DNA from: Leptolyngbya sp. FACHB-261
GTDB taxonomy: Bacteria > Cyanobacteriota > Cyanobacteriia > FACHB-261
NCBI RefSeq assembly: GCF_014696065.1
Contig: NZ_JACJPL010000027.1
Span: 1 to 64,000, forward strand
Reading direction: 5' to 3'
DNA: 64,000 nucleotides
Part shown: positions 24,120-39,891 of the stretch, piece after piece
How the letters are laid out: the number at the start of each line of letters is the position of its first letter
Position numbering within the stretch: the first letter of the stretch is position 1
The notes under the pieces: generated by a model
What the model was told of the DNA's origin: nothing
Database searches by the model: none
The model's input: only the letters and a program-made list of their open reading frames with translations
Program-made: the position numbers and the translations under genes

Positions 24120-25868
24120 CTAGGGCTGGATCAGATGCCGCTCGCGGCGACGATGGTCCACGAGGAGGCTAGTGCGTCGTAGCAACGGCTGGAGCACCAG
24201 AGCTGCCAAGGGCAGGCCAGTCAGCAACAGCGCAACCCCAACTTGGATGCTGAGATAACCGGGAGCAAGGCTAATCCCCAAGCCAATACCCAACAGAGCT
24301 GTTAGTAGGGCAATGCTAATGGCGAGAGCATGACTAAAGCCTCGCTCTACTAACTGCTCACCAACTAGTCCTAGACCTGCGCCTGTCAGGCCACCTATCA
24401 CGGCTCCAGTTCCCGCGCCCATGGCTGTGAGGGTCCCTCCGACTGTGGATACACCTGTGACCAAGGCCAGCATCGCTGCTGCCGAGATGGCACCTAGACC
24501 AGCAACCACAGAGGTCGCTGCACCGACCTCAGCACCAGCTGTAGCCAGAGCCCCTGCAGCTGCGCCAAAGCTGACAGCAGCACTAGCTGCGACCGCCACG
24601 CCGAGTCCTGCGCCTGCCATCGCCACAGCAAGCGCTGTCACCCAAGCCATTGCCCCCGAACCGGTAAGCAGTAAGCCCCAGAACAGATAGGGAAGTTGCA
24701 CTATTGGAACCGGAACCGGGGCAGTTTGCACTTTGAGCACGAGCGAGTGCGTTTCTAGTGCTGAGTTGGTATGCAACAGCAGTTTGCGAACATAGGTCTT
24801 GTCCGCCATCAGCTGGACCGTGTCCACAGTGATTGTGCATTCTGCTTGATCGCTCACAAACTGCGGCGGGTCAAAGGCGATCCAGGTGTGAGAGTCAGGG
24901 GTGTGGGGTGGGTCGCTGAAGTGGGGAGCCACCACCTAGGTTCCCGTCAGCACGCTTTTGGTTGGTGTGGGGTTGCTAATGGTTACTGTTTGACGCAGTT
25001 CTTCACCCAGTTTGGTCGCCCTAAATTCCAGGCAGGCCAAACTAATCTTGGCCTCTGGAAGGCGATAGGTGGAGAGCGGCTTAAGCGCTTCGAGGGCAGT
25101 GGTGGCGTCAGCATAGCGATCTTTAGGCCGGGGCTGTACCATTTTTTCCAGCCAATCTGCCCAACGGGGATTGAGTTTAGGCAGTAGAGATCGAAACTGG
25201 AAGCGATAGTTGTGATCGACTAAGTTGCCAACATCGACAGATTTAGTACGAGTGAGCAGACGAATGAGGGTGGCTCCCAAGCCATATAAATCTGAAGCCT
25301 CTGTCAGTTGACGATTGAGCAACTGCTCGGGTGGCATAAAACCCAAAGTGCCCTGAACCACACTACTCACAGCAACTTCACCATCACCGATACGGGCAAA
25401 GCCGAAATCAATTAGATAAACTCGAATCTGGTCATCCACCAAAATATTTTCAGGTTTAATATCGCGATGGACAATGACAGGAATACGGTTCTGTAGATAA
25501 ACCAGAATTTCCAGGACTGCAATTGCAATCTGCTTAATCTCATCCGGGTCGAAGCTGCGTAAAACGGCTAGAGAAGGTGTATATTTGTATTCCTGAACCA
25601 CACAAAACCCATCATCAGTGTGAAAGGAGTGCAGATAGCGGGGAATACCAGGATGGTTAAGGCCCCGAAGCACTTGAATCTCCCGTTCATAGGCGACATA
25701 TCCAGACTAGTCGGAGTTGGATTTCACAAATTGAAATTGCTTGATCACAACGGATTCTTGTAGCTTCAGATCTTCAGCCAGGTAGGTTATGCGACCACCA
25801 CCGCGGTTGTGACCTAGCTCCCTCTGAATGCGGTAGCCCTAGCTGGTGAAATCTGCGAGCTCGTTCAT
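24120..25868 (-). pseudogene. Ser/Thr protein kinase interrupted by three in-frame TAG codons
   Basis: A single frame of 582 codons runs from ATG 25868 to TAG 24120, broken only by TAG at codons 10 (25841-25839), 54 (25709-25707) and 311 (24938-24936); there are no frameshifts. All kinase signatures survive: a Gly-rich loop LGHNRGGGRITYLAED, K43 in VVIKQFQF, HRDIKPEN at 134-141, DFG at 154-156 and GTLGFMPPEQ. After codon 311 come an Ig-like segment (APHFSDPPHTPDSHTW) and a Gly/Ala-rich membrane region of about 130 residues. The TAGs probably replace Gln (codon 10) and Trp (54 and 311), each one transition away. Separate shorter ORFs start at 25673 (GTG) and 24935 (GTG). Recent nonsense pseudogene is likeliest; readthrough is possible. 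Confidence 0.8.
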
Positions 25869-39732: not shown

Positions 39733-39891
39733 GGACACAGATAGCGGTAGAGGTATAAAAACCAAGCAAGAGTTTAGTCTCACAAGCTACGTAGTAATAC
39801 TGAGCAGAAATCGAACTCATTCAGTAGTTTTAGCACTGTGGTTTATCGTGCAGTGCTCTAAGCTAAGGACATACGAGTTCAAACCCCGCCT

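Follow-up and report, generated by a model that had tools for sequence, protein, structure and literature searches.

A gene for a Ser/Thr protein kinase in Leptolyngbya sp. FACHB-261 is very probably a recent nonsense pseudogene. It lies in the window analysed here (positions 1 to 64,000 of contig NZ_JACJPL010000027.1, 64,000 nt in all) and its frame runs along the minus strand from 25868 to 24120, beginning at an ATG (codon 1) and containing no frameshift. TAG codons at positions 10, 54 and 311 are the only stops inside the frame, and its natural end is the TAG at codon 583, which aligns with the C-terminus of the orthologues. The first-pass annotation had reported the three internal stops and the absence of a frameshift, and both hold on the frame, although it omitted the strand. 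In the scheme we favour, an ancestral 582-residue membrane-attached Ser/Thr kinase would have gained three nonsense point mutations, probably in two Trp codons and one Gln (or Tyr) codon. The first TAG would halt translation ahead of the kinase domain, and reinitiation downstream would yield only a fragment from codon 66 that lacks the ATP-binding loop and lysine. From the sequence we infer that kinase function has probably been lost. Two observations place the locus among pseudogenes: the frame is broken relative to intact orthologues, and the genome offers no means of decoding the stop.

The interrupted frame and its domains

The features of the locus are as follows.

24120..25868, minus strand: entire interrupted frame of the kinase (582 codons, then the final TAG)
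25839..25841, minus strand: in-frame TAG, codon 10 (His/Tyr/Gln in orthologues)
25707..25709, minus strand: in-frame TAG, codon 54 (Trp in 50/51 orthologues)
24936..24938, minus strand: in-frame TAG, codon 311 (Trp in 48/51 orthologues)
25110..25826, minus strand: Ser/Thr protein kinase domain, residues 15-253 (Pfam PF00069)
24936..25673, minus strand: open fragment between codon 66 and the TAG at 311, without glycine loop and beta-3 lysine

When read through, the frame matches Pfam Pkinase over residues 15-253 (E 1.6e-33), and the solved structures nearest to it by sequence are Ser/Thr kinases (E 1e-17); an NCBIfam search gave no model above its cut-off. The catalytic motifs were said at first pass to be intact, and all are present: the glycine loop, the lysine in VVIKQF, HRDIKPEN and DFG. 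The domain and motifs that mark a Hanks-type Ser/Thr kinase (Pkinase domain, glycine loop, Lys, HRD, DFG) are thus found in the read-through frame only. The last 200 residues are hydrophobic and compatible with membrane regions, in line with the layout first proposed; the putative Ig-like part of that layout (about residues 270-390) gained no support, as a Pfam search gave no match there in the kinase frame or in two orthologues. Since the open fragment between codons 66 and 311 lacks both the glycine loop and the beta-3 lysine, it is predicted to be inactive as a kinase on its own. The neighbouring genes, for an extracellular solute-binding protein and DnaX, are both on the opposite strand and both open. 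The nearest paralogue in the genome is only 40% identical and aligns in the kinase domain alone, so there is no second copy of the gene in the genome.

Orthologues and the age of the probable loss

Searching ~390 genomes of the class, together with public genomes in a further scan, we assembled 52 full-length cyanobacterial orthologues, 39-56% identical to the FACHB-261 kinase; no relative closer than 56% was found in this search. Orthologues of the same length and layout occur in Coleofasciculus, Symploca and Symplocastrum. All but one (51/52) are free of stops, and a stop at codon 10, 54 or 311 is common to none of the 52. The remaining one (G317, four stops) looks frameshifted and was rejected as a gene interrupted by stops only, a short stretch of it being read in another frame. 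A kinase orthologue at L174 1001-2761, from another cyanobacterium, has a short stretch in a shifted frame, through either two compensating shifts or assembly errors. The ancestral residues proposed at first pass were Trp at 54 and 311, which the orthologues bear out, and Gln at 10, which proved to be one of several: codon 10 is variable across 51 orthologues (H 17, Y 15, Q 13), so that this stop may instead have arisen from a Tyr codon (TAC/TAT).

That all three stops are of one kind had been called unusual, a view the gene's own codons do not sustain. A random nonsense change in this gene gives TAG 45-49% of the time, and three TAGs therefore have a probability of 0.09-0.12. That the three stops are alike gives no evidence of an altered genetic code. 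The lack of any frameshift among three lesions is mildly unusual, and to that degree counts against a recent pseudogene.

The rest of the protein is well kept. Under neutrality, three nonsense changes should be accompanied by ~50-70 missense changes. Among 96 near-invariant positions (at least 95% conserved; 94 when two of the stops are excluded), the kinase copy departs at 3/94 (A97T, C203R, N340D) in addition to the two stops, while intact orthologues depart at 3.08 on average, and the branch leading to the copy is of ordinary length, not long. That damage at these positions equals that of healthy orthologues despite the neutral expectation is in weak tension with a recent pseudogene: the missense shortfall has P 0.01-0.2, according to the number of these three changes that postdate the loss, which makes it a weak test. 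The near-invariant columns thus show no excess damage, at a power too low to separate a recent, unlucky gene from residual selection. As damage outside the stops is not in excess, the loss would be recent, and three stops without a frameshift in an otherwise well-kept protein suggest the same. This fits with other pseudogenes of the genome, with the kinase at the early end of their range of damage: a response-regulator pseudogene (C27:569103-569637, L107) has a frameshift in its receiver domain and a TAG in its DNA-binding domain, and a remnant of a Usp-domain gene (C27 ~247200-247900, near 247330; L091) has an in-frame TAA and lies in a decayed stretch without intact frames.

Decoding of TAG and alternative readings

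We looked for a means of translating TAG in the genome. ARAGORN typing of the 42 tRNA matches above the Rfam cut-off gave a standard set complete save for Ile-GAT and Ala-TGC, which usually sit in rRNA operons and are often missing from draft assemblies. A tRNA with a CTA anticodon, the suppressor suggested at first pass as worth seeking, was not among the 42 (Rfam tRNA model, ARAGORN; genome estimated 97.7% complete). A CTA-loop pattern matched 55 times genome-wide, fewer than the 135 matches in the reversed control; the only tRNA among 30 of these matches with loci is a known Leu tRNA, and a stem-aware scan of 1.66 Mb returned a single match, not a tRNA. In the window, 39857-39885 carries a CTA-loop and a T-loop-like pattern, where ARAGORN finds no tRNA. 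RF1 is present and intact, and TAG terminates 173/514 long frames (in 1.66 Mb of the 6.95 Mb genome).

Other genes with an internal TAG had also been proposed as a sign of suppression. As a sample of conserved domains we took 151 receiver (PF00072), 107 ABC ATPase (PF00005) and 150 histidine-kinase ATPase (PF02518) copies, ~48,000 codons in which ~250 stops would be expected at the rate of the kinase (3 in 582 codons). No internal stop occurs in these ~400 copies among the matches listed, nor did any further intact frame with a TAG inside it turn up among them. An ab initio scan for interrupted frames, an insensitive method, brought up mostly neighbouring genes. Another kinase, flagged for a TAG and a TAA (C31:540765-541565), turned out to be intact, the match having run past the natural end of the gene.

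Assembly errors, with sense codons as the true bases at the three stops, are unlikely. All three stops lie in a C-TAG context (CCAG to CTAG on one strand), and at two of the three the original sequence would have been a CCWGG site; methylated bases at CCWGG-type sites can mislead long reads. Against this, the ~400 domain copies hold no stop among the matches listed, so there is no systematic error; the genomic frequencies of CTAG, CCAGG and CCTGG are close to normal (observed/expected 0.92-0.97), and the common context of the three stops has a chance of ~0.13 given the gene's codons. A methylation hot spot was rejected on the same figures, the stop context not being significant and the CTAG frequency ordinary.

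We consider it highly unlikely that amber readthrough still sustains low-level expression of the kinase, the second of two options left open at first pass; the other, a very recent pseudogene with multiple hits, is the one that stands. Expression of this sort has been proposed for certain conserved stops within bacterial frames. At ~1% readthrough per stop, three serial stops multiply the loss to about one in a million. Nor does the genome have a CTA tRNA or, as far as found, another intact frame with an internal TAG, while it does have RF1, and the stops are common to no orthologue. In favour of readthrough, the remainder of the protein has no excess of damaging changes, and in-frame stops with dN/dS < 1 are reported from many bacterial genes (Belinky et al. 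2021, PMC7918605). More doubtful still is a kinase gene that is almost silent yet remains under selection, with only traces of product made by amber readthrough. A genome-wide recoding of TAG as an amino acid, for which no evidence was found and against which the first-pass annotation had rightly argued, is refuted by the frame ends (173/514 in TAG), the tRNA set (no CTA anticodon), RF1 and the domain copies (no TAG in ~48,000 conserved codons among the matches listed).

Comparison with known systems

Cyanobacterial Hanks-type Ser/Thr kinases with a C-terminal hydrophobic region share the length and layout of this protein at 39-56% identity, but lack in-frame stops. Belinky et al. 2021 (PMC7918605) describe in-frame stop codons in genes with retained purifying selection; as in the kinase, a TAG can interrupt an otherwise intact gene, but in their cases the stop occurs in at least two genomes, whereas the kinase stops occur in no relative. 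The locus should carry a pseudogene label, and would gain in importance only with the discovery of a full-length product. Unlike a typical bacterial nonsense pseudogene, the kinase combines three stops with no frameshift and a well-kept protein; like bacterial nonsense pseudogenes in general, it has unconserved stops, in a gene with intact orthologues and in a genome with no suppressor.
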